NCBI GenBank assembly: GCA_024276495.1 | Contig: JAJRXC010000106.1 | Location: 1-32,526 of the forward strand | Reading direction: 5' to 3' | Origin: Actinomycetes bacterium | GTDB lineage: Bacteria > Actinomycetota > Acidimicrobiia > Acidimicrobiales > Aldehydirespiratoraceae | Length of the DNA: 32,526 bases | Shown: piece after piece, positions 2,621 through 29,694 of the stretch | Layout of the letters: each line of letters begins with the position of its first letter | How positions within the stretch are numbered: the stretch's first letter is position 1 | Translations under genes and position numbers: made by a program | The notes under the pieces: model-generated | What the model saw: the letters and a program-made list of their open reading frames with translations, nothing else | Databases searched by the model: none | What the model was told of the DNA's origin: nothing

Positions 2621-4507
2621 TCAGGGCGCGAGGTCGGCGGCGAACAGCTGGACGGTCGGTGTTCGTGGAGGCCAGCGGGCCTGTGACGAGAATCGTGCGA
2701 CCGCGACCACGACCGCGTCGTCCATCACCCCGAGCGCACCCACCAAGCGTGGGCCGTCCGCCAGCTCCGAGGCGTCGCTGAGGCTCCACGTCTGTCCGTC
2801 GATGGAGGTCAAGATGAGCTGTGACGGCTGCGGTTCGACGCTCGCGGAGCCCAGCCACTGGAGCTCGCGAAGTTCCTCCACGGTGACGGTCACGATCGCT
2901 TCGGAGGTCACGGGATCGACGAAGGTGACCGTGCCCTCGGTGAGGTCGACCCGGTAGCTGCCGTCGATCGGGTCATATGCCGGCACACGGAGCCGTTCGA
3001 GACCGTCCTCGCGAACGATGATCTGGTCGTCGCCGCCGAGCAGAGTGAACCCCTCGACGACGATCGCGGCCGCCGGCACCGGCGAGCGCTCGACACGATC
3101 GGTATCGACGATCCCATCGGCCAGGGCGACGACACCCCGGTCGCCGGCCGCGACGCGCGTCATGAACCAGTCGGGGCCGGCCGGAAGGATCCTCCCCACC
3201 CGCACGGTTGCCCAGTCGGCACCGTTCGCCGACACCCGGAGGCCGGTGCCGGCGCCGTTGGCCACCCCGACGATGTTGGCCCCCCACCTCACGATCGACC
3301 CGACAGAGGCGTTGCCGTTGACCGTCCACTCGAGCCCGTCGATCGACACGAGCACCCCGTCGCCCCGGGCGAACCCGGATCCGAAGCCGGTGACCACGAT
3401 GCCGCCCTCGTTCACAGCGGCAAGACTGTTGGCGTAGAACTGGTCGAGCTCGGCAGTCTGCCAGTCGCCCCCGTCGGCGGAGCTCCACACCACGGTGACC
3501 GGCTGGATCGGTGCGGTTTCGAGCTCGGTCAGCTCCGATTCCGACAATCCGAGGTCGGCCGCGGTGAACTCGGCGAGCGGCAGCCCGAACGGTCCGCGGA
3601 GCCGGACGAGCAACGTCGACCCGCTGAAGTCCGTCTCCACATTGTCGTGGGTCAGATCCAGGTCGACGACATCGACCACAGCCGCTCGGACGAAATCGTG
3701 GAGATCGACCCGATCGAGGATCCCGACGATCACGGTCAGGTCGCCGCTGCTCGCCAACGCGGTCGGCTCGACCATGGCACCGTCGGGCACCAGATCGAGC
3801 GGGAGCGGCCGCACCTCCCAGTTGATCGCGTCGAGCGACGTCCACACAACGGGAGCCTGGTCTCCGTCGACTCCCACGGCGATGAGCCCGACGGGTCCGG
3901 CGATGACCGCGTTCACGGTGTTCGGCGCGGCGATCACCGGGCCCAGGCTCGACCAACGGGTCGCGTTGTCGGAGCGCCACACCGACAGTCCCTCGCCCCT
4001 GACCCCGAGCGGGTCGAGCGGTCCGGTGGCGAAGAACAGGGACGACCCGTCGCACTCGACGAACGCGAGGGGCCAGACACCGGAGATCTCCGGACCCGCC
4101 GTCCAGTCCAGGCCGGGGGCGGCGACGAGCTCGATCGCGGCGGCGGTGCCGACCTCCGTGCCGGCCGGGGAGTCCCCGATCTCCGGCGGCGACTCCGCGA
4201 GCGGAACCGCCGGATCCGGCGGCGACTCCACATCGCCGCCGGAAACGAAGGACAGCGCGACGGCGACACCGAGCGCTCCCAGCAATCCGAGAAGCAGCGG
4301 CACCCGACGGGGACTCCCCGCCGGGGCAGGCTCGACCGCGGTCGTCGGCTGTGGCGCTCCGGAGAACACGTCGAGCTCCACATCGGCGACGTCGAGCCCG
4401 GCACCGCACGCGGAGCAGAACCGCGCGGCCGCAGCCGTCCGCGCCCCGCAGGTGCCACACGATTCGACCGCCACGGCCTCCGAAACTACTCGCCGGGAAC
4501 CGTCCAT
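2621..4507 (-). CDS. Zinc-ribbon membrane protein with large extracellular repeat domain
   Basis: From ATG 4507 the protein has 628 residues. A zinc ribbon lies at 17-34 (CGTC...CSAC). A Pro-rich linker, RR and one transmembrane helix (about 69-89) follow, then an acidic/Pro segment and an exported domain of about 500 residues. That domain repeats a short motif of the type S-x-D-G-x-x-W: WTSLDAINWE, WSSADGGDWQ, VSIDGLEWTV, VSANGADWAT and TSIDGQTWSL. Such spacing suggests BNR/Asp-box-like beta-propeller blades. The zinc ribbon would be cytosolic and the propeller outside. A TTG at 4561 could add 18 residues; neither start has a clear Shine-Dalgarno. It is divergent from the histidine kinase gene. 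Function unknown. Confidence 0.8.
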   Translation of the reverse strand: MDGSRRVVSEAVAVESCGTCGARTAAAARFCSACGAGLDVADVELDVFSGAPQPTTAVEPAPAGSPRRVPLLLGLLGALGVAVALSFVSGGDVESPPDPAVPLAESPPEIGDSPAGTEVGTAAAIELVAAPGLDWTAGPEISGVWPLAFVECDGSSLFFATGPLDPLGVRGEGLSVWRSDNATRWSSLGPVIAAPNTVNAVIAGPVGLIAVGVDGDQAPVVWTSLDAINWEVRPLPLDLVPDGAMVEPTALASSGDLTVIVGILDRVDLHDFVRAAVVDVVDLDLTHDNVETDFSGSTLLVRLRGPFGLPLAEFTAADLGLSESELTELETAPIQPVTVVWSSADGGDWQTAELDQFYANSLAAVNEGGIVVTGFGSGFARGDGVLVSIDGLEWTVNGNASVGSIVRWGANIVGVANGAGTGLRVSANGADWATVRVGRILPAGPDWFMTRVAAGDRGVVALADGIVDTDRVERSPVPAAAIVVEGFTLLGGDDQIIVREDGLERLRVPAYDPIDGSYRVDLTEGTVTFVDPVTSEAIVTVTVEELRELQWLGSASVEPQPSQLILTSIDGQTWSLSDASELADGPRLVGALGVMDDAVVVAVARFSSQARWPPRTPTVQLFAADLAP

Positions 4508-4624
4508 CGACGCCAGGCCACTCGCCCCCGACACACCTCGAAACCGGACGAAGCCCGGCAAAGACTGATTCCGGGACGAAGCTTTGCGAAATATTGGCGA
4601 ACCGCTGGCAATCAGCTTCCGTTG

Positions 4625-4652
4625 TGACGACGGCGATCAATTATCGTCGTCA
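4625..4652 (+). promoter_or_regulatory. Inverted repeat and -10 box before the two-component operon
   Basis: TGACGACG (4625-4632) and CGTCGTCA (4645-4652) are perfect 8-bp inverted arms whose centres are 20 bp apart, about two helical turns. Between and within them lies TATCGT (4642-4647), a TAnnnT -10 box ending 7 nt before ATG 4655, consistent with a leaderless transcript. The arrangement suggests an operator that occludes the promoter. It also lies in the divergent gap to the zinc-ribbon protein gene. The binding protein is unknown. Confidence 0.45.
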
Positions 4653-4654
4653 TC

Positions 4655-5968
4655 ATGGCCATCGCGTTTGCCCGGCGTGTGCGGAATCGATTCTTCCGGC
4701 TCGACCCGTTTCGCTCGTTCGCGATCGCCGGGTTGGCCGGGATGCTCGCGATCGTCGGGGCGAGCCTGTTCGCGTCGCAAAAGGCGGGAGAAGCCGAGGC
4801 CACCTCCGATGTGCGCCGCCTGACCGAGCTCGTCGCGAAAACGGTCGTCGCGCCCAATCTCTCCTCCGAACTGCTGGCCGGCGACCCCGCGGCGATCGAA
4901 CAGTTGGACCGCATCATCAGCAGCCAGGTCCTCGACGACATCACATTGACCGTGAAGCTCTGGGACGATTCGGGCCGCGTCGTCTACTCCGATCAGGCCC
5001 CATTGATCGGCGAGACACACGAACTGGACGGAAGAGAACGTGAATCGATTCGGACCGGCGAGGTCCGGTCGGAGATCAGCACACTGGAGGGTCCCGACGA
5101 TCGGTTCATGACCGAATTCGATGAGCTTCTCGAGGTCTATTTGCCGATCGAGGGACCCGACGGCGAACCTCTTCTCTACGAGTCGTATTTCGCGATGTCC
5201 GGGGTCACGGCCTCGGTCAACAGGATTCGTGCGGAGTTCGTGCCGATCATCATCGCGGCGCTCGCCGTGATGGAGGCGATGCACGTGGCCCTGGCCTGGG
5301 GGATGAGCAAACGAATGCGGCGAAGCCAGCTGGAGCGGGAGCAACTGCTGCAACGGGCCATCGACTCGTCCGAGATCGAACGACGACGGATCGCGGCCGA
5401 CATCCACGACGGTGTCGTCCAAGAGATGGTCGGCACCAGCTTCGCCGTGTCCGCTGCGGCGGAGACCGCCGAGAAGTACGACTCCGAGCTCGCCGACGAC
5501 CTCCGGACGGCGTCCGTCGGCACCCGCAGGAGTCTGCAGTCGCTGCGCTCACTGCTGGTCGACATCTATCCACCCAAACTGTTGGAACACGGGCTGGAGG
5601 CCGCGCTGGTCGACCTGCTCGCGCCGGCCGCGAGCCGCGGGCTCGAGACAGAGCTCTCGATCACGGGCGCTCCCGACTCCACTCCCGATGCGGTCACGCT
5701 CGTCTACCGGGTCGTGCAGGAATCGGTGCGCAACGTGCTGCGCCACGCCGACGCCTCCTCGCTGCAGATCGACATCCTCGCCGCGCCCGACTCGATCAAG
5801 GTCACCGTCGGCGACGACGGTGTCGGGTTCTCCGACGAAAAAGTATCCCGCAACGGCCATCTCGGTCTTCGGCTCATGGCCGACCTGACCGCTGACGCCG
5901 GCGCCGACTTCCGCATCGACTCCACCCCGGGCCACGGCACCACGATCCGGCTGGAAGTTCCCCGATGA
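4655..5968 (+). CDS. NarL-class sensor histidine kinase
   Basis: The 437-residue membrane kinase has transmembrane helices at about 21-41 and 195-217, enclosing an extracytoplasmic sensor region of about 150 residues with no motif I recognise. A HisKA_3 dimerisation domain follows, with the phospho-acceptor H251 in ERRRIAADIHDGVVQ, and then an HATPase_c domain with N box (SVRNVLRHADA, about 357-367), G1 (DDGVGF, about 388) and GHGTTIRL near the end. HisKA_3 kinases pair with NarL/LuxR response regulators, and one follows with an ATGA overlap (5965-5968). The start is ATG 4655, after a -10 box 7 nt upstream. The signal sensed cannot be inferred. Confidence 0.93.
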   Translation: MAIAFARRVRNRFFRLDPFRSFAIAGLAGMLAIVGASLFASQKAGEAEATSDVRRLTELVAKTVVAPNLSSELLAGDPAAIEQLDRIISSQVLDDITLTVKLWDDSGRVVYSDQAPLIGETHELDGRERESIRTGEVRSEISTLEGPDDRFMTEFDELLEVYLPIEGPDGEPLLYESYFAMSGVTASVNRIRAEFVPIIIAALAVMEAMHVALAWGMSKRMRRSQLEREQLLQRAIDSSEIERRRIAADIHDGVVQEMVGTSFAVSAAAETAEKYDSELADDLRTASVGTRRSLQSLRSLLVDIYPPKLLEHGLEAALVDLLAPAASRGLETELSITGAPDSTPDAVTLVYRVVQESVRNVLRHADASSLQIDILAAPDSIKVTVGDDGVGFSDEKVSRNGHLGLRLMADLTADAGADFRIDSTPGHGTTIRLEVPR

Positions 5969-6585
5969 TCCGAGTGCTGCTGGTCGACGACCACACGCTG
6001 GTGCGAGCGGGCCTGAAACGGCTGCTCGAACAGACCAACGAGATCGAGGTCACCGTCGCCGACAGCGGCGAAGCCGCGGTGGCCCTCGACGCCGAGCTTC
6101 GACCCGACGTCGTCTTGATGGACGTCTCGATGCCGGGCCTGAGCGGGATCGAGACGACTCGCCGGATCTGTGCCGGGCGACGCGACGCGTCGGTCGTGAT
6201 GCTCACGGCATCGACGGACCGGGACGACGTCATCGGCTCGCTCGACGCCGGCGCGATCGGCTACCTGATCAAGGACGCCGAGCCGGCGGCACTGATCGAA
6301 GGGGTCCGGGCCGCCGCCCAGGGTGAGGCACCGCTCGACGCCCGCGCCGCCAAAAAGGTCCTCGACACCCGCACGTCGCGGGCCACCTCCTTGACCAGCC
6401 GGGAGACCGAGGTGCTCAACCTGATCTCCGACGGCTTGTCGAACAAGGCGATCGCCCGCCGGCTCGGGATCAGTGAGAAGACGGTGAAAAGTCACCTGAC
6501 CCGCGTCTTCGCCGAGCTCGGGGTCTCGGATCGAACCCAGGCCGCCCTCTGGGCCAGAGAGCACCTCGGCCCCGCCGACACCTGA
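5965..6585 (+). CDS. NarL/LuxR-family response regulator
   Basis: The 206-residue regulator has a receiver domain with acidic pocket D8/D9, phospho-acceptor D53 (VVLMDVSMPG), T81 and K103, followed by a LuxR-type helix-turn-helix (TSRETEVLNLISDGLSNKAI...TVKSHLTRVF) at about 140-200. Phosphorylation by the overlapping kinase should trigger dimerisation and binding to an inverted repeat. A 14-bp palindrome of the kind used by NarL-family regulators lies 33 nt past its stop codon and just upstream of the glycosyltransferase operon, which makes that operon its most likely target. All receiver residues are intact. Confidence 0.94.
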   Translation: MIRVLLVDDHTLVRAGLKRLLEQTNEIEVTVADSGEAAVALDAELRPDVVLMDVSMPGLSGIETTRRICAGRRDASVVMLTASTDRDDVIGSLDAGAIGYLIKDAEPAALIEGVRAAAQGEAPLDARAAKKVLDTRTSRATSLTSRETEVLNLISDGLSNKAIARRLGISEKTVKSHLTRVFAELGVSDRTQAALWAREHLGPADT

Positions 6586-6617
6586 CCGGTCCGACCCTTC
6601 ACCCCCGGCGCGAGGGA

Positions 6618-6631
6618 TGGTCCTAGGACCA
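6618..6631. promoter_or_regulatory. 14-bp perfect palindrome, likely response-regulator operator
   Basis: TGGTCCTAGGACCA is its own reverse complement. It sits between the response-regulator gene and the glycosyltransferase operon, centred about 51 bp upstream of the predicted start of transcription at ATG 6676. NarL-family regulators such as DosR bind palindromes with GGAC/GTCC half-sites, and a centre near -50 is usual for an activator. Binding by the adjacent regulator is inference. A terminator hairpin is unlikely: there is no loop and no T tract. Confidence 0.6.
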
Positions 6632-6641
6632 ATGTCCACTG

Positions 6642-6669
6642 TCGACTCGGACCTCATCTGCTCAAGAGT
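6642..6669 (+). promoter_or_regulatory. Putative promoter of the glycosyltransferase/kinase operon
   Basis: TCGACT (6642-6647, four of six to TTGACA) and AAGAGT (6664-6669, matching the A and T most conserved in -10 boxes) are 16 nt apart. The -10 box ends 6 nt before ATG 6676. No Shine-Dalgarno precedes that ATG, so the transcript is probably leaderless. The weak hexamers would suit activator dependence, and the 14-bp palindrome lies directly upstream. Confidence 0.4.
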
Positions 6670-6675
6670 CGCCTC

Positions 6676-6996
6676 ATGGCAACCCCCACCGGATCGGTCC
6701 AACGGCGAACACTGCGCCCGCTGAACCCGACGACGCTCGTGGAGGGCGTGTTGACCCGATCCGGGCCCGACGACGAGGTGATCGTCAGGATCCACGGCGG
6801 ACCACCCCACAAGACCGCGGTCGTCGCGGTCGACGGCGCGATCCCCCGCGGCATCCGTCTCAACGGTTGTGGCGCGGGCTGGACCCGGCTCGCCGAGGTC
6901 GACGGAAGCCCACGGGTGCAAGTGGCGGTCGACGACGACGTGCTGTTGACCGGCCGGCTCTTCGCCCGGCCGAACCGCTCCGGAGTCCGGCCATGA
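6676..6996 (+). CDS. Small unknown protein, first gene of the glycan operon
   Basis: The 106-residue protein has no signal peptide, membrane helix or motif I recognise. It looks beta-rich (VEGVLTRSG, DEVIVRIHGG, KTAVVAVDGA, RVQVAVDDDVLLTG), with Arg-rich ends. The ATG has no Shine-Dalgarno but lies 6 nt after a -10-like AAGAGT. Its TGA overlaps the next gene's ATG (ATGA), so it is translationally coupled to the first glycosyltransferase. That position suggests a structural or regulatory partner of the pathway. Function unknown. Confidence 0.65.
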   Translation: MATPTGSVQRRTLRPLNPTTLVEGVLTRSGPDDEVIVRIHGGPPHKTAVVAVDGAIPRGIRLNGCGAGWTRLAEVDGSPRVQVAVDDDVLLTGRLFARPNRSGVRP

Positions 6997-8147
6997 CCCG
7001 CTTCCTGTTCTACAGCCACGACACCTACGGCCTCGGCCATTTCCGCCGTTGCACGCTCTTGGCCTCCGGCCTGGTCGGCGACGACGCCACCAACGAGGTC
7101 CTCATCGTCACCGGCTCGCCCCGGGCCCACGCCTTCCCCCTTCCCGAACGAGTGGACACCGTCCAGCTTCCGTCCGCGACGAAGCGCGACGACGGCGCCT
7201 ATTGCCCCCGCAAGCTCGGAGACGACATCGCACGGCTGATCCGATTGCGAACCGAGCTGGTCCGCGCCGCGGTTCTCGCCTACCGGCCCGACGTGATCCT
7301 CGTCGACCACGCACCGCTGGGCATGGGCGGCGAGCTCGCACCGGTGCTGAACGACCTCCGACACCGGCGCCGCCGGCCCCGGCTCGTCCTCGGACTGCGA
7401 GACGTCATCGACGACGCTGCCCGGGTGGGAGCCATGTGGGAACGCGACGGCATCTGGGACGCGCTCGACCACTACGACGAGATCTACGTCTACGGAGATC
7501 CACGAGTCACCACCACCGCCCAGGAGCTCGATCTCGCCCAACGCACGAACGCCACCGTCACCCACACCGGATACGTGGCCCCGAACATGCCGGAGCCGAT
7601 CACCGACGACCCGTTCGTGCTCGTGACCCCCGGAGGCGGCGGCGACGGCCAGGCCCTGCTGCGGCGCTATCTCGATGCCGTCGAGGCCGGCGCGACCGCC
7701 GGCGTTCGGTCGGTCGTCGTCCCCGGCCCTCTCCTGTCGCCCCGCCGTCGGGCCGAGCTGCTGGTGCGCGCCGCCCGCCTCCCGTCGGTCGAGCTGATCG
7801 AGTTCTCGGATCGGATGCGCACCCTCATCTCCTCGGCCACCGGCGTGGTCTCCATGGCCGGGTACAACACCGTCGTCGAGGAGCTGGCCGCCGGCACTCC
7901 CGCCCTCCTCGTCCCCCGCCGCACACCCCGACTCGAACAACACATCCGGGCCACGAGGCTCGCGCCGTTCACCCAACTCGACAGCTGCCGCCTCGACGAC
8001 CTGTCACCCGAGCGGGTCCACGGCTTCGTCGCCGAGTCGCGCGACCGATCGATCCCGCCCGTCTCGATCGACCTGACGGGTGTTGCCACCGTCGTCGGCG
8101 CCCTGCGCCCATCAACCACCACGAAAAGGGAGCGCGCCCATGTCTGA
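6993..8147 (+). CDS. MurG-like predicted glycosyltransferase (COG4671 type)
   Basis: The 384-residue protein begins FYSHDTYGLGHFRRC, the hallmark N-terminus of the COG4671 predicted glycosyltransferases, which share the GT-B fold of MurG. The N-terminal acceptor half includes VDHAPLGMGGELAP. The C-terminal nucleotide-sugar half includes VTPGGGGDG, VVSMAGYNTVVEELAAGTPALLVPR and RLEQHIRA, equivalent to the donor-binding loop of GT28/GT1 enzymes. It should transfer a sugar from an NDP-sugar at the cytosolic face; donor and acceptor are unknown. The start overlaps the preceding stop (ATGA), and its end overlaps the next gene by 8 nt. Confidence 0.85.
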   Translation: MTRFLFYSHDTYGLGHFRRCTLLASGLVGDDATNEVLIVTGSPRAHAFPLPERVDTVQLPSATKRDDGAYCPRKLGDDIARLIRLRTELVRAAVLAYRPDVILVDHAPLGMGGELAPVLNDLRHRRRRPRLVLGLRDVIDDAARVGAMWERDGIWDALDHYDEIYVYGDPRVTTTAQELDLAQRTNATVTHTGYVAPNMPEPITDDPFVLVTPGGGGDGQALLRRYLDAVEAGATAGVRSVVVPGPLLSPRRRAELLVRAARLPSVELIEFSDRMRTLISSATGVVSMAGYNTVVEELAAGTPALLVPRRTPRLEQHIRATRLAPFTQLDSCRLDDLSPERVHGFVAESRDRSIPPVSIDLTGVATVVGALRPSTTTKRERAHV

Positions 8148-9372
8148 GCCGTGTCGTCCCTCCGATCGCCTCCACGTGGGCTACGTCCTCAAGCAGTACC
8201 CGAGGCTCTCGGAGACCTTCATCCTCAACGAGATCCTCGGCCTGGAGGAGAACGACGTCGACGTGTCGATCTTCTCGCTGCGATACGCCACCGAGGGCCG
8301 GTTCCACCCCGCGACCGCCGCGGTCAAGGGCTCGGTCCGCTATCTCGCCAATCCCGACAAGACGGCCTTCCTCGACGCGTTCCGGGCGCTCCCCGAGCTT
8401 CGTCTGGAACGGCTCGACCAGATCTTCGCGTTCATCGACCTGCTCCCGGCCGCCCGCCGAGCCCGCCTCGTTCTCCAGGCGATCGAGATCGCCGGCGCCG
8501 TCAACCGCTCCGGGATCGATCATCTGCACGCCCATTTCCTGACCGTGGCGGCCCACACCGCGCATCTCGTGCACCTCCTCACCGGTGTCCCCTACTCGGT
8601 CACCGCCCACGCCAAGGACATCTACCGGAACTCGGTCGACTGGGACATCGCCACCCGAGTGGCCCAGGACGCCGCGGCCGTCGTGACAGTGTGCGACGCG
8701 AACCTCCGGTATCTCGCCGACCGACTCGGAACGGGCTGTCGCCTCGTCCGGATCTACAACGGTCTCGGCCCCCAGGACCAGCCAACGCCCGTGGAATCCC
8801 GCACCGCGGGGTTGGTCCTGGGGGTCGGACGACTCGTGGAGAAGAAAGGTTTCGACCTTCTTCTCCGCGCGGTCGCCGACCTCGCGCCCGACCATCCCGA
8901 CCTGACCTGTGTGTTGGTCGGCGATGGAGATCAACGGGCTGCCCTCGAGGCGCAGGCGATCCACCTCGGCATCGAACCGCGGGTGACGTTCACCGGCGCG
9001 CAACCCCAGAACGAGGTCGCCGCGTGGCTCCGACGGGCCCAGATCATGGCGGCCCCGTGCCGGGTCGGGACCGACGGCAACCGCGACGCGTTGCCCACCG
9101 TCCTCCTCGAGGCCCTGGGCGCGGGGCTGCCCGTCGTCACCACTCCGGTCTCGGGGATTCCCGAGATCATCGCCCACGGGGAACAGGGCCTGATCGTCGA
9201 ATGCGACGACTCGGCTGCGTTCACCGCCGCCCTCGCGCGGCTGCTCCAGGACCGGCAGCTCGTCGCCTCCATGGCCGCGGCCGGCCCCCCGAAGCTGGCA
9301 CGCGACTTCGACCGGGCCGACACGATCGGCCAGTTGGTCGACACATTCCGAACCCGCGCCCTGGTCTCATGA
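8140..9372 (+). CDS. GT4-family glycosyltransferase
   Basis: The 410-residue GT-B retaining glycosyltransferase begins with a typical N-terminal segment (VGYVLKQYPRLSETFILNE), as in exopolysaccharide and colanic-acid glycosyltransferases. LHAHFLTVAAHTA and YSVTAHAKDIY lie in the acceptor half. The GT4 donor half contains VGRLVEKKGFDLLLRA, VLVGDGDQR and the E-x7-E region VLLEALGAGLPVVTTPVSGIPE. The ATG at 8140 follows an AGGGAG ribosome-binding site at about 9 nt and overlaps the previous gene by 8 nt; its TGA overlaps the next ATG. It should add a sugar to the same product as its neighbours. Confidence 0.92.
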   Translation: MSEPCRPSDRLHVGYVLKQYPRLSETFILNEILGLEENDVDVSIFSLRYATEGRFHPATAAVKGSVRYLANPDKTAFLDAFRALPELRLERLDQIFAFIDLLPAARRARLVLQAIEIAGAVNRSGIDHLHAHFLTVAAHTAHLVHLLTGVPYSVTAHAKDIYRNSVDWDIATRVAQDAAAVVTVCDANLRYLADRLGTGCRLVRIYNGLGPQDQPTPVESRTAGLVLGVGRLVEKKGFDLLLRAVADLAPDHPDLTCVLVGDGDQRAALEAQAIHLGIEPRVTFTGAQPQNEVAAWLRRAQIMAAPCRVGTDGNRDALPTVLLEALGAGLPVVTTPVSGIPEIIAHGEQGLIVECDDSAAFTAALARLLQDRQLVASMAAAGPPKLARDFDRADTIGQLVDTFRTRALVS

Positions 9373-10526
9373 ACGGCGTGGCGCTCCGTCCGCAGACCCT
9401 CGGGTGGTCGCCGCGGCGTGCGTCGCTCCGGCGGACTCCCGCGAACCGGACCCTCTCGTTCGTCCAGGTCTGCGCCGATCGCGGCGTCGCCCCGGGTTCG
9501 ACCAAGGGGGCGGCCCAGCACCTGCGCGGCATCGCAGCGGGGCTGACACGAGGCGGCCACCGGCTCGTCACCTACACCGCTCGCCGTTCCGAGGGACCGT
9601 TTCCCACCGAGGTCCGCAAGCTCAGCCGACTGGCCGACGAGGCGGCCGCCGGTGCCGATGTCGTCTACGAGCGCTACTCGCTCGGTCACCGCGGCGGCCT
9701 CGATCTCGCCCGCGCGATCGGGGCCCACTTCGTTTTGGAGGTGAACGCGCCGCTCGTCGACGAGGCCCTCGCTCATCGACCCGGGACCGTCGAATCCCAC
9801 CACCGCCGCGTCGAGGCCGACTTGTTGCGGGAAGCGGATCTGGTGATCACCGTGTCGAGCGCGCTGACCCGTTGGGCGATGCGGCACCGCTCCGGGCCGA
9901 CGATCACGGTGACCAACGGGTTCGAACCGGAGTGGTTTCCCACCGTCGACCGCCGTCACACAGAACCATCGCTGGTGTTCCTCGGACATCCGAAGCCGTG
10001 GCACGGCGCGCGACAGCTGCCCCGGATACTGGTCGACTTGGCCCTGCGTGGGCGCCGCCCCCCGATGCTCGTCATCGGGGGCGGCGCCGGAGCCGACGAG
10101 TTGATGGACGAGGCCCGGCGCCTCGGCGTCTCCGAGCAGATCACCGTCACCGGTCCCCTGCCGCCGGTGGTCGCCTCCGAGTTGCTCTCCACCGCGACGA
10201 TCGGGATCGCTCCCTACCTTCGCCAGGATCCCTTCTACTTCTGCCCGCTCAAGGTGGTCGACTACCTCGCCGCCGGTCTACCGGTCGTGTCGACCGACCA
10301 GGGTGACATCGCGTCGCTGGTCGGCGACGCCGGACTCGTCGTGGATCCCGACGACCCCGATGCCCTCGTCGAGGCGATCACGACGCTTCTCGACGATCCC
10401 GACCGGTGCGCCGAGCTCGGACGCGCGGGCCGTGACCGGGCGATGGCCACGCTGACCTGGGACGACGCCGCCGCCCGCACCGCCACGGCGATCCTGTCGC
10501 TCGACCGCCCACCATCGGCCCGCTGA
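9369..10526 (+). CDS. GT4-family glycosyltransferase
   Basis: The 385-residue protein has the GT4 layout. An N-terminal half carries APGSTKGAAQHLRGIAAGLTRGGH (the Gly-rich start loop) and a YERYSLGH segment. A donor half carries VFLGHPKPWHGARQLP, ITVTGPLPPVVASELL and CPLKVVDYLAAGLPVVSTDQGD. In the E-x7-E motif the first Glu appears as Asp (VVDYLAAG), a conservative change, so activity is still likely. The start overlaps the upstream stop (ATGA), and the stop overlaps the ABC transporter ATG (TGATG). It is not a close copy of the preceding GT4, so it probably makes a different linkage. Confidence 0.9.
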   Translation: MNGVALRPQTLGWSPRRASLRRTPANRTLSFVQVCADRGVAPGSTKGAAQHLRGIAAGLTRGGHRLVTYTARRSEGPFPTEVRKLSRLADEAAAGADVVYERYSLGHRGGLDLARAIGAHFVLEVNAPLVDEALAHRPGTVESHHRRVEADLLREADLVITVSSALTRWAMRHRSGPTITVTNGFEPEWFPTVDRRHTEPSLVFLGHPKPWHGARQLPRILVDLALRGRRPPMLVIGGGAGADELMDEARRLGVSEQITVTGPLPPVVASELLSTATIGIAPYLRQDPFYFCPLKVVDYLAAGLPVVSTDQGDIASLVGDAGLVVDPDDPDALVEAITTLLDDPDRCAELGRAGRDRAMATLTWDDAAARTATAILSLDRPPSAR

Positions 10527-12256
10527 TGCGACTCCTCCGCCGCAACCCGATCGAGCTTCCCCGCTCCGAGCTGCGCCGCGCCTTCACCACGTTTCGTCCC
10601 GCGTTGCGCGGCCAGGGCCGTCGGATCGGCGCCGCGGTCGTCCTCGCGCTCGCGATCACCGGGCTCGAGCTGCTGAAGCCATGGCCGATCACACTGGTCA
10701 TCGACCATCTGATCGCCGCCAACGACACCACCACCGTCTCGCTCACCCCCATCGTCGTCTTCGCCGCGGTCGCCTTCACGATCCCCCTCTTGTTGGGGCT
10801 CGCGAACGAACATCTGCAGCTGGTCGTCGCCCGGGTCAGCCGCAAGGCCACCGTGCGCATCCGCAGCGACGTCTTCGAGCACATCCAACGTCTCGAGTTG
10901 TCCGAGCACCAGCGCAGCTACAGCGGCGATCTGCTGATGCGGCTGATGGGCGACGTCAACATGGTGCGCGATCTGTTGTTCCCCAGCTGGCTCAACTTGT
11001 TGTCGCGCGGCTCCGTGCTGATCGGCGGCTCGATCGTGTTCGCGATCGTCGACTGGCGACTGTTCGCCGTCGCCCTCATCCCGCTCCCGCTGCTGTGGGT
11101 CAGCGTCGAACGTGGCTCTTCGGCGGTGAAGACCGCGGCCGGCAAACAACGCAAGAAGGAAGGCGCCATCGCGTCGACCGCGGCCGAGTCACTGCGCCAG
11201 GTCGGCATCATCAAGGCCTTCTCGGCCGAAGAACGCACCACCGAGGAGTTCCGCAGCAGCGCCCGCAGCGCCGAACGGGCCACGATGGCCGCGGCTCGTC
11301 ACACCGCCCGGATGGCCCGTTTCACCGAGATCCTCACCGGTGCCGGCGTGGCGACGGTGCTGGTTCTCGGCGCGATCCGCACCCGCGGCGGCGTCCTGAC
11401 CCCCGGACAGCTCGTCCTGGCGATCTCCTACACCCGCATGATCTACAAGCCCATCCGGAAGCTCACGGCGGAGGGGGCGAGAATCGCGAAGGCGACCGCC
11501 TGCGCGCTGCGGGTCATGGATCTGCTCGACCGACCCGTCGAGGACCCGTTCGACGGCATCGAAGTCGACGATCTCCGAGGCGACATCGAGTTCGACGGCG
11601 TCGGCCACACCTATCCCGACGGGCGTACGTCGCTCGAGAACCTCTCGGGCCGCATTCCGGCCGGGTCGATGGCGGCGGTCGTCGGCGAGAACGGCACCGG
11701 CAAGTCGACGTTGCTCTCCCTGCTGCTTCGCCTGCACCGTCCGAGCGCCGGCACCGTCAGCATCGGCGGTGTCCCGATCGAGACGCTGCAGCTCGCCTCC
11801 TACCGTGACCAGATCGCGTACGTCCCCCAGGAGCTAGCCCTGTTCGGAGGGACGATCAGGGAGAACATCTTGTTCGGGAAGCCGGAGGCGACCGAGGCCG
11901 AGATCGCCTCGGCCGCCGACGCCGCCCTGTTCACACCGGTACTCGAGCAGCTGCCCGACGGCCTCGACACGATCCTCGACGAGAGCGGTGCGTCACTGTC
12001 GGGTGGCCAGGCCCGTCGCCTGATGCTCGCCCGGGCGGCCCTTCGCGACGCGTCGATCCTCCTGCTCGACGAGCCGTTGGCCGGCCTCGATCCCGACGCT
12101 CGCGACACCGTCGCGAGCGCCATCACCAACATCGCCGCCGGTCGGACCACGCTCGTCGTCCACCACGGGAGCCTGGACGAGCTCGGGCCCGACTATTGCG
12201 TCACGCTTCGCCACCGGCCCGAGCGGGCCCGTCGCCTCCACGCGGTGAGCCGATGA
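10526..12256 (+). CDS. ABC exporter, fused membrane and ATPase domains (type IV)
   Basis: The 576-residue half-transporter should work as a homodimer. The N-terminal ABC_membrane domain (about 20-310, six helices) contains the intracellular-loop sequences typical of MsbA/lipid-type exporters (GDLLMRLMGDVNMVRDLL). The ATPase domain has Walker A GENGTGKST near 388, a Q-loop (YVPQELALFGGTIRENI), signature LSGGQ near 491, Walker B ILLLDEP near 513 and the H-loop histidine (LVVHH). It lies between three glycosyltransferases and two sugar-kinase-like genes, all overlapping, so the likely cargo is the glycoconjugate they make, possibly lipid-linked. No peptidase domain is fused, which argues against peptide export. 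Confidence 0.93.
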   Translation: MRLLRRNPIELPRSELRRAFTTFRPALRGQGRRIGAAVVLALAITGLELLKPWPITLVIDHLIAANDTTTVSLTPIVVFAAVAFTIPLLLGLANEHLQLVVARVSRKATVRIRSDVFEHIQRLELSEHQRSYSGDLLMRLMGDVNMVRDLLFPSWLNLLSRGSVLIGGSIVFAIVDWRLFAVALIPLPLLWVSVERGSSAVKTAAGKQRKKEGAIASTAAESLRQVGIIKAFSAEERTTEEFRSSARSAERATMAAARHTARMARFTEILTGAGVATVLVLGAIRTRGGVLTPGQLVLAISYTRMIYKPIRKLTAEGARIAKATACALRVMDLLDRPVEDPFDGIEVDDLRGDIEFDGVGHTYPDGRTSLENLSGRIPAGSMAAVVGENGTGKSTLLSLLLRLHRPSAGTVSIGGVPIETLQLASYRDQIAYVPQELALFGGTIRENILFGKPEATEAEIASAADAALFTPVLEQLPDGLDTILDESGASLSGGQARRLMLARAALRDASILLLDEPLAGLDPDARDTVASAITNIAAGRTTLVVHHGSLDELGPDYCVTLRHRPERARRLHAVSR

Positions 12257-13536
12257 CCGACGACTCGACGCTGGACGATCTCGTCGATGCCGACTCGGCA
12301 ACCGAACGCTTCCGCGCCGCCGGCCTCACGCTGACGAACGCAGAACCGGACCAGATCCGCCACAAGCAGGGCGAGACGACGGTCATCGCCTACCGTTTCA
12401 CCCTTCCCGACGGCGACCACACGTGGGGCTACGCCCACTGGTGCGTCCGATCGGAGCGGGCCGATGAGATCCACGCAAAGGCGATGACGTTTCGGCCCCG
12501 CCCCTCCCCGATCGGCACGACAGTTCACCGGCTCGATCGCCGGACGGTGCTGTTCGGCTTCCCCAACGACATGCGATTGCGCACGCTGCGTTGGTATGTC
12601 GATCCTCGCAAGCTCAAGCGGTCGTTGGCCGATCTCGTCGGCCCGGCCGAGCGGATCTCGGGTGGCCGGTCGCGCGTCGAGATCCTGCGCTACAAGCCCG
12701 AACGTCGTGTCGTCGCGAGAGTCGACCTGACGACGGTCGACGGAACCGCCCGACCGCTCCTGTTGCGCTACGGCACACGCCGCGAGGCCGGCCGGTTGGC
12801 CGCGATCGCGACCCATCTTCGCGACCATGGCACGGCCACGCCCGAGCCGATCGCCCAACTCGACGGCGACCGCGTCGCGGTCGACCGCTTCATCGACGGT
12901 GAACCGATGAGAGACGTGATCCGAACCGTCGGTGCCGACGGTGCCGCGCTCGGCGCGGCGTTGGTGCGCTTCCACACGACAGCGGCCCCGAGGGCGCTCG
13001 AGCGCCGCTCCGTCGGCACCGAGCTCGACAAGGCCAGGGCCGGACTCGCCGGACTCGCCGCCTGGGCACCGGCGCTGGCGGGTGCCGCGACCGCCCTGGC
13101 CGACCTTCTCGCCCGGAGCCGGCCCGACGACCCGCGCGCCGAGGTCTTGCTCCACGGCGACCTCCACTCGAACAACCTCCTCGTGCACCACGACGCCATC
13201 TCGTTCGTCGATCTCGAGCGGGTCGCCGTCGGACCGGCGGCCGTCGATCTCGGCTACTTCCGGGCCCACGCGATCGCCCTGTCGATCCGCCGGCCCGGTT
13301 GGTCACCGACCGCGCTCGACCATGCCGACGCCATGATCGAGCGCTACCGGACGCTCGCCGGGCCGATCGCCGATCGGGCGCTCGCCTGGCACGCGGCGAT
13401 CGGCCTCGTCGATCAGGCCCTCCTCGTCACCCGCCACCTGGAGGGGAACTGGTCACACACCGGGGCCGAGCTGCTCGCCGCGGCCCGAGGGCAACTCGAC
13501 GCCGGTGCGCGCGCCCTCTCGGTGGCCACCCGATGA
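12253..13536 (+). CDS. APH/choline-kinase-fold phosphotransferase A
   Basis: The 427-residue protein has a small-molecule kinase fold at its C-terminal part. The catalytic loop is LLHGDLHSNNLLVH (H301, D303) and the metal-binding Asp follows in FVDLERV. The N-terminal 130 residues are extra compared with typical APH enzymes (about 270 residues) and include FPNDMRLRTLRW. The nucleotide lobe begins around VEILRYKPERRVVARV. It should phosphorylate a hydroxyl of a sugar, lipid or amino-alcohol. Its ATG overlaps the exporter's TGA and its own TGA overlaps a second kinase gene. An antibiotic-resistance role is possible but unlikely in this setting. Confidence 0.85.
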   Translation: MTDDSTLDDLVDADSATERFRAAGLTLTNAEPDQIRHKQGETTVIAYRFTLPDGDHTWGYAHWCVRSERADEIHAKAMTFRPRPSPIGTTVHRLDRRTVLFGFPNDMRLRTLRWYVDPRKLKRSLADLVGPAERISGGRSRVEILRYKPERRVVARVDLTTVDGTARPLLLRYGTRREAGRLAAIATHLRDHGTATPEPIAQLDGDRVAVDRFIDGEPMRDVIRTVGADGAALGAALVRFHTTAAPRALERRSVGTELDKARAGLAGLAAWAPALAGAATALADLLARSRPDDPRAEVLLHGDLHSNNLLVHHDAISFVDLERVAVGPAAVDLGYFRAHAIALSIRRPGWSPTALDHADAMIERYRTLAGPIADRALAWHAAIGLVDQALLVTRHLEGNWSHTGAELLAAARGQLDAGARALSVATR

Positions 13537-14510
13537 TCGTCTCGACGAGCGGGCCGCGGTTCATGAGCCGGTGGCCGACGGCCTACCCACGTCACCGCGG
13601 CTGCTGGACCGTGCGCAGCCGCGACGGCCGGTGGGGCTCCCTCGATCCCGAGACGCACGAGATCGCGACCGGCGCGCCCGAGAACGACCCAGAGCTGCCC
13701 GCCCTGCGGGGGCTCCTGGCCCGCGGCGAGCTGATCGGCTACCGCGTCGGCCGTCGGGCCGTCATTCGAACGCCCGAGACCACCTTCTTGAAGGTCGTTC
13801 GTCCGAAACGGCTGGCGGCCCTGATCCGGGCCCACGAGGCGGCGGCGGGGACGCCGTCTGCGATGGTGGTCCCCGAGGTGCTCCACTCCGACCCGGCGGG
13901 TTGGGTCGAGCTGGGCCGCGTGCCGGGACGGTCGCTGCACGATGCCCTTCGCGCGGCAACACCGGTCCGCGGTGGAATCGACGACATCTGCGCGGTCGGT
14001 CGTGCGCTCGCCGAGTTCCACCAGGCGCCGCCGTCCCCGACGCTCACCCATCGTGTCCTCGACGATCAGGCCCGCTGGATCGACACGGTGGGCCGAATCG
14101 AGCCGCTGGCCCGCGCCGAGCTGACGAGGGTGGCAACCGAGCTTCCCGTGCTTACGCCGACGGGCGGCGTCGCGGTCCACGGCGACCTCCACGACAAGAA
14201 CGTCTTCGTCGCTCGTGACGGTGTCGGCCTCATCGACCTCGATGGGCTGGGCCTCGGCGCGCCCGAGGACGATGTCGCGAACCTGGCGGTTCATCTCCGT
14301 CTGCGTGCCCTCCAGGCCGGGGCCGACGCGCTCCTGGGCGAGCAGCGGGCCGATTGTCTCTACGCGGCGTACTCGTCGGTGCGGCCGCTGGATCCGGTCC
14401 GCGTCGATGCCGTCGAGCGGCACACCTGGTTCCGGCTGGCCTGCCTCTACCGCTTCCGAGACGGCAGCCGCCATCTGACGCCCGAGCTCCTCCGCCGCGC
14501 CCGCGGGTGA
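13533..14510 (+). CDS. APH/choline-kinase-fold phosphotransferase B
   Basis: The 325-residue kinase-fold protein has the catalytic loop VHGDLHDKNVFVARDGVGLIDLDG (H216, D218, then the DFD-equivalent DLD). The lobe before it contains ETTFLKVVRPKR, where the Lys is a candidate ATP-binding residue, and VVPEVLHSDPAGWVELGRVPG, a common hinge pattern. It shares little beyond the core motifs with the preceding kinase, so the pair is not a recent duplication and may act on two positions or substrates. ATGA overlap joins it to the upstream gene. It is the last gene of the operon; the next gene begins 38 nt later with its own -10-like box. Confidence 0.85.
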   Translation: MIVSTSGPRFMSRWPTAYPRHRGCWTVRSRDGRWGSLDPETHEIATGAPENDPELPALRGLLARGELIGYRVGRRAVIRTPETTFLKVVRPKRLAALIRAHEAAAGTPSAMVVPEVLHSDPAGWVELGRVPGRSLHDALRAATPVRGGIDDICAVGRALAEFHQAPPSPTLTHRVLDDQARWIDTVGRIEPLARAELTRVATELPVLTPTGGVAVHGDLHDKNVFVARDGVGLIDLDGLGLGAPEDDVANLAVHLRLRALQAGADALLGEQRADCLYAAYSSVRPLDPVRVDAVERHTWFRLACLYRFRDGSRHLTPELLRRARG

Positions 14511-14536
14511 AGCCGTCGAGTGTCACACCCGGTTCC

Positions 14537-14542
14537 TAGTCT
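14537..14542 (+). promoter_or_regulatory. Putative -10 box TAGTCT for the HNH gene (leaderless)
   Basis: TAGTCT fits TAnnnT and ends 6 nt before ATG 14549. No Shine-Dalgarno precedes the ATG. A -35 hexamer is not convincing (GTCGAG at 14515-14520 is the nearest in place). Confidence 0.45.
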
Positions 14543-14548
14543 GGGTCC

Positions 14549-15757
14549 ATGGTGCTGGCGGAGTTCGACGACATCGGCGAGGCGATCGAGTTGGCCGCGA
14601 AGGTCGACTTCTCCGGTCTGGCCGGGGCCGATGTGGAGGACGCCGCGGTTCGGATTCAGGCGTTGAAGGCGAAGTTGGCCGCGTTGGAGGCGGCCACGGT
14701 CGGTGCCTACGACGCCTCCATGCATTGGTCGATCGCCGGTCATCGCAACGCGGCCTGCGCCCTCCGACACCGCGGCCGGATGCGTGGAGGCGCCGCGGCC
14801 GGCTCGGTCACCCTGGCTCGCGCGCTGCGCGACATGCCCGGCACGGCCGCGGCGCTCGCCGACGGCACGATCACCGAGCCCCACGCCCGTCGCCTGGCTC
14901 GCGCGGCGATCCGTCCCGAGTTCGCCGCCGCCGAAGAGTTCCTGCTGCGCAAGGCCGCGTCGTTGTCATTCGCCGATTGGGAGCGGGCGGTGCGCTACTG
15001 GGAACAGGTCGTCGACGAGGCTCGCCGCGGCGACGATCCCGAACCTCCCGATCCGCGCGAGGTCAATCGATCGCTGCATCTGTCCAGAACACTCGATGGC
15101 ATGGGCCGCATCGATGGCTGGCTCGACCCGGTCGGCTCGAGCGATGTCCGAGAAGTGCTGCGCCGAATCGAAAAGGAGCTCTTCACGGCCGACTGGGCGC
15201 AGGCCAAGGAGACCCACGGCGACAAGACGACGGTCGACGCCTTGTGGCGCACCCCCACCCAACGACGCGCCGATGCCCTCGTGGAGATGGCCCGTCGAGC
15301 GGCGACCGCCCCGGTCGACGGCAAACGACCTCGCCCGCTGACCATCGTGCACGTCGACCATCACACCTTCGACCGCACCGTCGCCGCACTCTTCGGCCAA
15401 CGCCCGCCGGAGCCCGATCCCGACACCCCACGGCTGTGCGAGCTCGACGACGGCACCGTCATCAGCCCGACCCAGATGATCGAGCAGGCCATCGTCGGCG
15501 ACGTTCGCCGGCTCGTCTACGGCGCAGCCGGTGTGATCCTCGACTACGGCCGCAAGGTCCGCCTCTTCCAGGGTGCGCTGCGAGAAGCGATCTGCGCCCG
15601 AGACCGCCGGTGCGCCCACGATGGATGTGAGATCCCCGCCCGCGAATGTGAGATCGATCACATCGAGGAATGGAACGACGGTGGTTCCACCAGCCACCGC
15701 AACGGGAAAGCCAGATGCAGCTTCCATCACCGGCGCCACAAACACGGCCCCGGCTGA
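14549..15757 (+). CDS. DUF222 / 13E12-repeat HNH endonuclease-like protein
   Basis: The 402-residue protein has the layout of the actinobacterial DUF222-HNH (REP13E12) family. A helical N-terminal DUF222 region spans about 20-330 (ALADGTITEPHARRLARA is characteristic), and the C-terminal HNH nuclease begins after CARDRRCAHDGCEIP, with catalytic EIDHIEEWNDGG, then HRNGKARCSFHHRRHKH. The H-N-H residues and zinc-binding cysteines are present. These genes occur in many copies in actinobacterial genomes, and their role (repeat-borne nuclease or element-like gene) is not settled. It starts 38 nt after the glycan operon. I see no flanking repeats that would mark an element. Confidence 0.9.
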   Translation: MVLAEFDDIGEAIELAAKVDFSGLAGADVEDAAVRIQALKAKLAALEAATVGAYDASMHWSIAGHRNAACALRHRGRMRGGAAAGSVTLARALRDMPGTAAALADGTITEPHARRLARAAIRPEFAAAEEFLLRKAASLSFADWERAVRYWEQVVDEARRGDDPEPPDPREVNRSLHLSRTLDGMGRIDGWLDPVGSSDVREVLRRIEKELFTADWAQAKETHGDKTTVDALWRTPTQRRADALVEMARRAATAPVDGKRPRPLTIVHVDHHTFDRTVAALFGQRPPEPDPDTPRLCELDDGTVISPTQMIEQAIVGDVRRLVYGAAGVILDYGRKVRLFQGALREAICARDRRCAHDGCEIPARECEIDHIEEWNDGGSTSHRNGKARCSFHHRRHKHGPG

Positions 15758-21843: not shown

Positions 21844-22575
21844 ATGACGTCCCCACCACGACTCGTGACGATCGCCCTCGTACTCACCCTGTTCGCCGCC
21901 GCGTGCGGAACCGGGGAGGGAGAGACGGCCACAGCCGGCGCCGACGAGTTCGTCCTGCAGGGGGAGGAATCGCTCGCGATCGACCCGACCACGACAACGA
22001 CCGGGGCACCCGACGCCGCCCCGACCGGCGCCGCCGAAGGTGGCGCCCCGGAGTTCGACACGACCGAGGACACCCTGCCCCAGGCCGAGGAACGAGACGC
22101 CGACTCCGAGTTCTTCGACGCGGTCGGTGAGTTCATGGCATGTCTCGGCACCGAGGGCTACACCTTCCTCGGCCTGCCCAACCAGGACGGGGACCCCGAC
22201 GACCCGGTCAACGACCCCGGCTACACGACCGCGCTCGGCGACTGCGCGGCGCTGACCCAGATCGTCAGCAAGATGGAGGCAGCCGAGGACACCAGCAACC
22301 TGACCGCGGAGGAGATCGAGACCCAGAACCGGCAGTTCACCATCTTCGTCGACTGCCTCGTCGGTCGGGGCTGGACCATCCCGACACCGACCCCCGATGA
22401 GAACGGCGTCCTTCAACCGCGCTACGTCGAGATCGCCGAGACCTGGATCCCACCCGACGGCACCTCGCTGCTGGCCGACGGGGAGGTCAACACCGACGAT
22501 TTCGTCGAATGCGGATTCGACCCGGACAATCCCTCCGAGCTCGACACCGGCGCGACCCCGACCGAGGAACCCTGA
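21844..22575 (+). CDS. Secreted lipoprotein with CLxxxG repeats, paralogue 1
   Basis: The 243-residue lipoprotein has a signal peptide and lipobox ending FAAAC (lipidated C21), then an acidic/Thr linker. Its folded part carries two C-L-x3-G segments, MACLGTEGYTF (about 99) and VDCLVGRGWTIP (about 169), with another Cys after each (GDCAAL, VECGFDPD). Four conserved cysteines suggest two disulfides. The first segment resembles the CMREHG-type lipoproteins that often accompany peptidoglycan-binding membrane-fusion proteins in actinobacteria (from memory, not searched). The next gene is a paralogue (TGATG overlap), followed by such a fusion protein. It is probably an extracellular accessory of that exporter. 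Confidence 0.85.
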   Translation: MTSPPRLVTIALVLTLFAAACGTGEGETATAGADEFVLQGEESLAIDPTTTTTGAPDAAPTGAAEGGAPEFDTTEDTLPQAEERDADSEFFDAVGEFMACLGTEGYTFLGLPNQDGDPDDPVNDPGYTTALGDCAALTQIVSKMEAAEDTSNLTAEEIETQNRQFTIFVDCLVGRGWTIPTPTPDENGVLQPRYVEIAETWIPPDGTSLLADGEVNTDDFVECGFDPDNPSELDTGATPTEEP

Positions 22576-23300
22576 TGGCCACGATCTCCCGCACCGCCGT
22601 CCTGCTCGCCCTCGCCCTCACCGCGGCCGCCTGCGGAGGGGGAAGCACCGACACCACGGCCGAGGGCGGTGCGAACGACTTCGTTCTCCAGGGAGACCAG
22701 GCCCTCGACGGCGACGCCATCACGAGCTCGACGACCACGTCGGCACCCGTCGCCGACGCGGCGGGCGGGGCCGCCGAATCGGTGGCCGGCGACACCGAGG
22801 CCTTCGAGTCCACGAGCGACACCGTCCCGCAGAACGAAGACGAAGGCAGCGCGATCGGCAACCTGTTCGAGGCCTTCGGTGTCTTTCGAACCTGTCTCGA
22901 CGACGAGGGCTACTCCTTCATCGGCCGCCCCGATCCCACCCTCGAACCGACCGATCCGGTGAACGACGCCGGCTATGTCGAAGCGCTGAGCAAATGTGCC
23001 GCCGTGAGCGACATCATCAACGCGCTCGAGGCCCAACAGGCCGAATCCGAGAACCTCGACACCGACGGCATCGAGACCCGCAACCGACAACTGGTGCTCT
23101 GGATCGACTGCATGGAGGGCCGCGGCTTCGTGATCTCGGAGATCACGACCGACGAGCGCGGGCTCAACAGCCCGACCGCGATCGAACCCCCCGCCGGCCA
23201 GTCGATCTTCGACGGCGACGACATGGGCGAATGCGCCGCGATCGCTGGCCGGCTCTACGACGAGCAGGTCGCGGACGAGACCGAAGGGACCGACGGGTGA
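22575..23300 (+). CDS. Secreted lipoprotein with CLxxxG repeats, paralogue 2
   Basis: The 241-residue lipoprotein (lipobox ending TAAAC, C20) is homologous along its length to the preceding one: both carry DFVLQG/EFVLQG after the linker, DPVND(P/A)GY, a DCAA/KCAA cysteine, ETQNRQ/ETRNRQ and a second CLxxxG-like segment (IDCMEGRGFVI). The order and spacing of the four cysteines are kept, so the two genes arose by tandem duplication and have diverged to about a third identity by eye. ATG 22575 overlaps the upstream TGA; its own TGA overlaps the GTG of the membrane-fusion protein. A functional heterodimer is possible but unproven. Confidence 0.85.
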   Translation: MATISRTAVLLALALTAAACGGGSTDTTAEGGANDFVLQGDQALDGDAITSSTTTSAPVADAAGGAAESVAGDTEAFESTSDTVPQNEDEGSAIGNLFEAFGVFRTCLDDEGYSFIGRPDPTLEPTDPVNDAGYVEALSKCAAVSDIINALEAQQAESENLDTDGIETRNRQLVLWIDCMEGRGFVISEITTDERGLNSPTAIEPPAGQSIFDGDDMGECAAIAGRLYDEQVADETEGTDG

Positions 23301-25503: not shown

Positions 25504-26229
25504 GTGGCCGACGCCTCGCTCCTGCGCCTCGAGGAGGTCTCGCGGATCTACGGGGACGAGGTCAAGGTCCACGCGCTCGACCGGGTCTCGATGTCGATCG
25601 AGGCCGGCGAGTTCGTCTCGATCGTCGGGCCGTCCGGATCGGGGAAGTCCACGATGCTCGGCCTCCTCGGGCTCCTCGACCTCCCCACCCTCGGCACGAT
25701 GTGGGTCACTGGCAAATCGGTCAAGGAGCTCGGTGACACGGAACGCTCCCGGCTCCGCGGCGAGGTCGTCGGCTTCATCTTCCAACAGTTTCATCTCATC
25801 CCGCATCTCGACGCCCGGCGCAACGTCGAGACCGCCCTCTTGTACCGCAACCTGACGCCGGCCGAACGTCGACGCCGGGCGATGGCCGCCCTGGACGTGG
25901 TGGGCCTCGCCCCTCGCGCTGACCACCGACCCGTGCAGATGTCGGGTGGCGAACAACAGCGGGTGGCGATCGCCCGCGCCATCGTGACCGAACCGAAGCT
26001 CCTGTTGGCCGACGAGCCGACCGGTGCGCTCGACTCGACCAACGCAGCCAACGTCATGCAGATATTCCAGGATCTGCATTCCCCGCTTCGAGCCATCGCG
26101 ATCGTCACCCACGATCCTTCGGTCGCCGCGGCGGCCCAACGACGGATCTCGATGAAAGACGGACGGATCGTCGCCGACGAGCAGCTGGTCGACGCCGCTC
26201 CGACGACGTTCGGCGGCACGCTCGACTGA
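25504..26229 (+). CDS. MacB/LolD-type ABC transporter ATPase
   Basis: The 241-residue ATPase has Walker A GPSGSGKST (42-50), Q-loop FIFQQFHLIPHLDARRNVE, signature MSGGEQQRVAIARAI (about 146) and Walker B LLLADEPTGALD (about 166-177), ending with the H-loop VTHDPS. The EPTGALD form is typical of the MacB/LolD/FtsE subfamily, which couples ATP hydrolysis to an FtsX-like permease. GTG 25504 is used; it lies 5 nt after the adaptor's TGA, and an ATT codon directly upstream is not needed. Its TGA overlaps the permease ATG. It is the motor of the operon's exporter. Confidence 0.96.
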   Translation: MADASLLRLEEVSRIYGDEVKVHALDRVSMSIEAGEFVSIVGPSGSGKSTMLGLLGLLDLPTLGTMWVTGKSVKELGDTERSRLRGEVVGFIFQQFHLIPHLDARRNVETALLYRNLTPAERRRRAMAALDVVGLAPRADHRPVQMSGGEQQRVAIARAIVTEPKLLLADEPTGALDSTNAANVMQIFQDLHSPLRAIAIVTHDPSVAAAAQRRISMKDGRIVADEQLVDAAPTTFGGTLD

Positions 26230-29307: not shown

Positions 29308-29332
29308 AAGGGCACCCCGATGGGGTGCCCTT
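29308..29332 (-). terminator. Hairpin terminator after the cold-shock gene
   Basis: AAGGGCACCCC (29308-29318) and GGGGTGCCCTT (29322-29332) form a perfect 11-bp stem with a 3-nt loop, 44 nt past the cold-shock gene stop codon. The minus-strand sequence after it (CGCTCTTGTTCGC) is T-rich but not a true T run. On the plus strand only TT then C follows, so it works mainly for the minus strand. Confidence 0.7.
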
Positions 29333-29376
29333 CTCACGATCCCGCAGATCGGTGCCTGAACGTTTCAGCGCCGCAG

Positions 29377-29577: not shown

Positions 29578-29629
29578 GACGGTATTCCTTTCGCTTTCCG
29601 TCGGCCCCAAAGTGAGACCGACAAAGGTC

Positions 29630-29635
29630 AGCTTA
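29630..29635 (-). promoter_or_regulatory. Putative -10 box TAAGCT for the cold-shock gene
   Basis: On the minus strand TAAGCT fits TAnnnT. Transcription near 29623 would give a leader of about 46 nt ending in AAAGGAATACCGTC before ATG. No consensus -35 at 16-18 nt. Confidence 0.4.
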
Positions 29636-29681
29636 GAGAACCACCGGACCAAAGGGCTGTCGCCCCGCGGCGGCGAGGTGC

Positions 29682-29687: not shown

Positions 29688-29694
29688 GCCGCCA

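Follow-up and report, generated by a model that had tools for sequence, protein, structure and literature searches.

We read the run of seven genes at positions 6676-14510 as one copy of a conserved module for glycan assembly and export with a kinase placed at the exporter, a reading that we favour with somewhat better than even confidence. The module itself is real, co-inherited and widespread, and apparently undescribed; no title in the open-licence literature was found to describe this gene set. It is preceded by the genes of a two-component system, and the nine genes together span positions 4655-14510 on the + strand of the window, i.e., the whole stretch of 32,526 nucleotides that was analysed. 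Reading frames, domains and junctions were checked and give the following layout:

4655..5968, + strand: sensor histidine kinase, HisKA_3 and HATPase_c (domain matches)
5965..6585, + strand: NarL-type response regulator, Response_reg and GerE (domain matches)
6618..6631, no strand: perfect 14-bp palindrome TGGTCCTAGGACCA in the gap between regulator and operon; candidate regulator site, weak by itself
6676..6996, + strand: small orphan protein of 106 aa (ORF)
6993..8147, + strand: GT28-like (MurG-type) glycosyltransferase (domain match, profile hits, motifs)
8140..9372, + strand: GT4 glycosyltransferase a, GT4a (domain match)
9369..10526, + strand: GT4 glycosyltransferase b, GT4b (domain match)
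10526..12256, + strand: ABCB-type exporter, ABC_membrane and ABC_tran in one chain (domains, motifs)
12253..13536, + strand: kinase A, APH fold (Pfam, motifs, structure model)
13533..14510, + strand: kinase B, APH fold (Pfam, motifs)

The genes of the sensor and the response regulator overlap by 4 nt, a gap of 90 nt (6586-6675) separates the regulator from the small-protein gene, and the six junctions within the seven-gene run are overlaps of 4, 8, 4, 1, 4 and 4 nt, in this order. This is in full agreement with an earlier reading made from the letters alone (the sequence-only reading), which had described a HisKA_3 kinase/NarL regulator pair followed by a seven-gene run, with six internal overlaps of 1-8 nt.

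All ten genes tested, namely the nine listed and a tenth at 14549-15757, reveal one common codon-position GC pattern. Because the values of the small gene (0.73/0.56/0.84) follow the pattern of its neighbours, it is probably coding. Domain searches found no family match for its product, and the single-sequence structure model is unusable (mean pLDDT 43). Since tblastn found no relative above chance among the fetched loci (best E 0.2), the small protein was set aside as a conserved part of the operon. The tenth gene encodes a DUF222 protein (+ strand), starts 38 nt past the stop of kinase B and is probably not part of the operon. Further downstream, likewise on the + strand, an ORF of 1033 aa (22397-25495) with HlyD/biotin-lipoyl, peptidoglycan-binding and Calx-beta matches is followed by a MacB-type permease (26229-27461); the two look like a tripartite-like efflux set. 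At 29320-31512 (+), biotin-lipoyl and carboxyl transferase domains are combined in one chain.

Informally speaking, the module would work as follows. A glycan, probably lipid-borne and probably containing uronic acid, would be assembled at the inner face of the membrane by the three glycosyltransferases (GT28-like, GT4a, GT4b). Placed on the cytoplasmic face of the exporter, an APH-fold kinase would phosphorylate the product or an intermediate, and the ABCB-type dimer would then carry the product outward. The adjacent two-component pair may activate the operon. A stricter version, in which phosphorylation by the exporter-bound kinase acts as a licence for export and the ABC transporter moves just the marked product, strikes us as rather doubtful. 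A kinase that marks a glycan ahead of ABC export would act much like the O-antigen chain-terminating kinases such as WbdD. The kinase part of WbdD has another fold, however, and is joined to a methyltransferase, and the ABC exporter of that system is of a different type.

The distribution of the module was studied from the family to higher taxonomic levels. A clear GT28 orthologue occurs in two of 51 family genomes, the window genome and G031 (67% identity); none was found in six other genomes of the same genus, and all other GT28 matches in the family reach at most 25.6 bits. With the best few first-look candidates scored per genome, GT28 matches were obtained in 12 of 395 class genomes (E 1e-20) and in 18 of 396 phylum genomes (1e-30), the window genome included in both cases. 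Since so few genomes of the family, class and phylum have a GT28 match, the distribution is patchy. A scan of genome contigs yielded at least 569 relatives, the best 80 of which were retained.

Gene order was read from a profile scan of 113 loci, plus tblastn maps. Besides the window, ten genomes preserve the order GT28-GT4a-GT4b-ABC-kinA-kinB, namely the actinobacterial L048, L061, L062, L164, L166, L167, L170, L171 and L173, and L084, a Zixibacteriota MAG. A dehydrogenase gene is inserted between the kinases of L061, GT4a is split over two frames in L171, and kinase B of L084, which has no Pfam match, was assigned by profile (124 bits). The count leaves out L047 (a close relative) and L049, both with no kinase A match; L064, a 13-kb contig with no kinase B match; L161, L163 and L172, where a kinase precedes the exporter; the rearranged sets of L174 and L054; L044 with a split exporter and extra genes; L063 with GT28, a partial GT4b and no exporter; L056 with GT28 and ABC genes and no GT4 between them; and L050, L053, L060, L162, L165, L168 and L169, whose contigs end early. 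Positions 11893-15380 (+) of L049 hold an expanded kinase set after the exporter, made up of a 750-aa ORF in which two stretches resemble kinase B and of one more APH gene.

For the 11 genomes with all six genes, protein distances were compared using the best-matching piece of each gene. The 15 pairs among the six proteins reveal correlations of 0.82-0.96, none of which was reached in 2000 permutations, and these values are compatible with joint transfer as well as with shared descent. Because gene order is conserved and protein divergence is correlated, the data fit inheritance of the cassette as one unit, in either of these two ways. The sequence-only reading had proposed a single operon for glycan assembly and export, kinases included, and the order kept in ten other genomes, the correlated distances and the fusions described below strengthen this proposal. 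Scattering of the genes in relatives, which it named as the finding that would speak against it, is not seen in these ten genomes, while the sets of L054, L063 and L174 are incomplete or rearranged.

The kinases are confined to a part of these loci. No kinase match was found in L051, L052, L055, L057 and L058, all of which carry a dehydrogenase gene, nor in another 77 loci, most of them proteobacterial (L065-L138 without L084; L041, L042, L045, L046), and thus the kinases distinguish one branch within a broader GT28-GT4 group. Clusters on alphaproteobacterial replicons (L041, L042, L046) share the first glycosyltransferase genes with the window in the same order and read GT28-GT4-GT4-histidine phosphatase-GT28-deacetylase. 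They differ in having no kinase A or B match, in place of which an annotated histidine phosphatase and polysaccharide deacetylase occur, and in their other ABC proteins. The deacetylase of L041 has no Pfam match.

Two loci join kinase and exporter directly. L170 and L171, from different families, encode exporter and kinase A in one ORF, in frame (973 and 968 aa), with ABC_membrane, ABC_tran and APH domains and with kinase B next to it. Of all the evidence, this fusion argues most strongly that kinase and exporter act together. A search for further exporter-kinase fusions in the taxonomic order of G659, the genome of L170, matched one of 30 genomes, G659 itself.

ABCB-type exporters combine TMD and NBD in one chain and carry Walker A, signature and Walker B motifs, all of which are present in the window exporter (Walker A 387, LSGGQ 491, Walker B 511). 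It resembles the MsbA/PglK-type exporters of lipid-linked glycans in its one-chain architecture and in being encoded with glycosyltransferases. However, its scores lie far below the cut-offs of both models (MsbA, its best NCBIfam model, 295 versus 602 bits; PglK, 125 versus 1000 bits), and it is encoded with two APH kinases, one of them fused to the exporter in two relatives. Among solved structures, its closest relatives are ABCB proteins of eukaryotes, including many multidrug pumps; this likeness fixes no substrate and does not point to a glycan. The KpsMT/Wzm-Wzt capsule pathway uses a membrane protein (ABC2-type) and an ATPase as separate proteins; the window exporter, in which both parts form one chain, does not belong to it, and no ABC2 membrane family is found among the operon's family matches. 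No Wzx/Wzy flippase or polymerase is found among the family matches of the operon genes.

The GT28-like enzyme carries the motifs GLGH at residue 13 and SMAGYNT at 287 and a Glyco_tran_28_C domain above the Pfam cut-off. The domain is common to MurG/MGDG-synthase-type enzymes, and profile searches weakly hit the solved structures of MurG and MGD1, yet the protein misses the MurG equivalog cut-off by far (16.5 versus 250 bits). COG4671 was the label used in the sequence-only reading; our identification derives from Pfam and profiles. The best NCBIfam model of GT4a is EpsE (151 bits, below the cut-off of 400). No initiating enzyme, polymerase or ligase is found among the operon's family matches.

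Hints at the cargo come from genes near other copies. A gene of the UDP-glucose-dehydrogenase type (at least 336 bits with a profile that L061 and L084 helped to build) lies by GT/ABC genes in L051, L052, L055, L057, L058, L061, L084 and L173. The dehydrogenases of L052, L061 and L084 exceed the NCBIfam cut-off of the nucleotide-sugar dehydrogenase subfamily; the next model is TuaD, whose cut-off is not reached. Upstream in L052 lies a gene of the epimerase family (best model GalE, below cut-off). L084 encodes an alginate-export porin, L161 sulfotransferases (two of three scanned), and L044 both a heparinase II/III protein and a gene product annotated as alginate exporter. Because dehydrogenase, alginate-export, sulfotransferase and heparinase genes lie near some copies, an acidic polysaccharide is suggested, and the product would more likely be an acidic glycan or glycolipid of the cell surface than an antibiotic. 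Kinases are present in only three of the eight dehydrogenase loci (L061, L084, L173), and therefore the clue to an acidic sugar comes mainly from the kinase-free branch. The window operon contains no dehydrogenase; elsewhere, the window genome encodes two members of this dehydrogenase family that exceed the cut-off.

Both kinases score above the PF01636 gathering cut-off of 23.2 bits (kinase A 73.2, kinase B 51.5). Hallmarks of the APH family are an HGD....N motif, a metal-binding Asp and the beta-3 lysine. Kinase B reveals HGDLHDKN at 216, Asp235 and Lys87 in FLKVVR, and kinase A HGDLHSNN at 301 and Asp320, with Arg172 at the beta-3 position. In alignments read by eye, Arg172 pairs with Lys in 4h05 and 8agy and with Arg in 3dxq, a choline/ethanolamine kinase family protein; since 3dxq has Arg as well, the idea of kinase A as a dead kinase was dropped. 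The structure model of kinase A has a mean pLDDT of 88.4, and its residues from about 107 to 422 match APH-fold kinases (VIA-align, Z up to 21.5). Maltokinases carry an N-terminal cap, and the N-terminal 106 residues of kinase A may, by analogy, be such a cap. In the model, the first hundred residues form strands and a helix in an N-lobe-like arrangement, and a profile comparison of residues 22-112 with 132-215 gave probabilities of 89, 84, 72 and 47%, depending on direction and mode. The two stretches thus align with moderate support, and RxKP-like motifs occur in both; a duplication of the kinase N-lobe within kinase A is possible.

The fold and sequence matches of the kinases do not fix a substrate, and three further roles have to be weighed. 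The kinases may phosphorylate free sugars, as maltokinase and glucosamine kinase do, and feed nucleotide-sugar synthesis, such that the exported glycan is free of phosphate. We regard this as unlikely. The first Foldseek match of kinase A is indeed a mycobacterial maltokinase (4u94), with a glucosamine kinase (6hwl) at rank 35, but VIA-align places other APH-fold kinases at the top (3ats, Z 21.5), above a maltokinase (18.5), and the fold picks no substrate. Moreover, no nucleotidyltransferase is found among the operon's family matches, and the fusion of kinase A with the exporter in two genomes better suits a role at the exporter.

That fusion would also suit a switch, with the exporter itself or some protein as the target of one or both kinases; kinase A and the L044 kinases weakly match LxmK, a lanthipeptide kinase. 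This role seems quite improbable to us. APH kinases and an ABC exporter beside glycosyltransferases also resemble self-resistance clusters for glycosylated antibiotics, and a profile search of solved structures returned, for both kinases, an aminoglycoside phosphotransferase first and a corramycin phosphotransferase within the first three. If the product were a small glycosylated antibiotic, kinases and exporter would confer self-resistance by phosphorylation and export. However, a scaffold-making gene is absent among the operon's family matches, and the core occurs in several lineages with the dehydrogenase, sulfotransferase, heparinase and alginate-export genes named above near some copies, which points to a polysaccharide. 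We consider the antibiotic very improbable.

The upstream pair has the domains of a HisKA_3/NarL two-component system. By eye, two membrane stretches of the sensor flank an extracytoplasmic part, and the likely phospho-acceptors are His251 of the sensor and Asp53 of the response regulator. Recurrence was assessed in 11 close genomes with GT28 profile scores above 400 bits (window, L047-L050, L060-L064, L144); the profile was built from the first five of these (window, L047-L050). L144 lies outside the 113 loci scanned for gene order. Among those 113 loci, L059 and L047 come from a single genome, as do L160 and L064, and each such genome was counted once in the close set.

A check suggested by the sequence-only reading was whether the gene order recurs together with a two-component pair. 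It does so in part. Five of the 11 close genomes (window, L048, L049, L050, L063) have a NarL-type pair upstream on the same strand, but the sensors of L049 and L050 belong to another subfamily (about 31% identity), and L063 has an incomplete cassette with a second sensor gene between pair and GT28. The other six have no upstream pair, with just 2.3 and 1.2 kb available there in L060 and L144, respectively. L056 has a pair downstream on the opposite strand. At E 1e-70, the window sensor is matched in none of the 50 other family genomes and in 13 of 394 other class genomes, where again the best few candidates per genome were scored. Eleven of the resulting 14 sensor-bearing class genomes lack a GT28 match at 1e-20, and the idea of a cassette-specific sensor was therefore dropped. 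The surroundings of these 11 reveal no GT28, GT4a or kinase match; ABC-ATPase matches occur just in L178 and L179, and L183 alone has a GT4b match, a very weak one. G245 and G271 have sensor and GT28 matches close together, and the adjacent response regulator of G271 ranks best of 11 regulator matches. An ECF sigma factor gene follows directly after kinase B in G271 (L048 2718-3272, -), and a gene weakly similar to it lies near kinase B of L062, on the other strand.

The 12-bp core of the window palindrome occurs once in the 4.33-Mb genome. When the 90-nt gap was shuffled with dinucleotides preserved, 44 of 500 shuffles held an equally good inverted repeat, and the palindrome was therefore dropped as proof of regulation. 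Simple scans of 4400-14700 found no terminator-like site and no site of the sigma-70-like consensus, the one promoter type covered. Thus, of the palindrome and promoter claimed earlier, the former is present, with the shuffle count given, and the latter was not recovered. The gap of L050 contains a 24-bp palindrome equalled in 0 of 500 shuffles, that of L048 one equalled in 2 of 200 as well as two copies of GGAACTC-N3-GAGTTCC, and that of L049 a weak one only (71 of 500).

Because the same sensor occurs elsewhere without the cassette, control of the operon by the adjacent pair is plausible, a fair guess only. That the pair is a chance neighbour without control is a sizeable possibility, short of even. 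The 11 sensor-bearing genomes devoid of the cassette genes, the six close genomes with no upstream pair and a window palindrome that alone is not significant agree with it; the same-strand pair in five close genomes, a sensor missing from the 50 other family genomes, the best-ranking regulator of G271 and the L050 palindrome argue against it.

Export of glycans by ABC transporters is well known, and the APH family is usually encountered as antibiotic-resistance enzymes. For a pair of APH-fold kinases co-inherited with the transporter, and for the fusion of one such kinase with it in two genomes, we found no open-licence title. If the kinase marks the cargo, the APH family would have a part in cell-surface construction in several lineages, and the operon would offer a compact system for studying how glycan modification and export are coupled.
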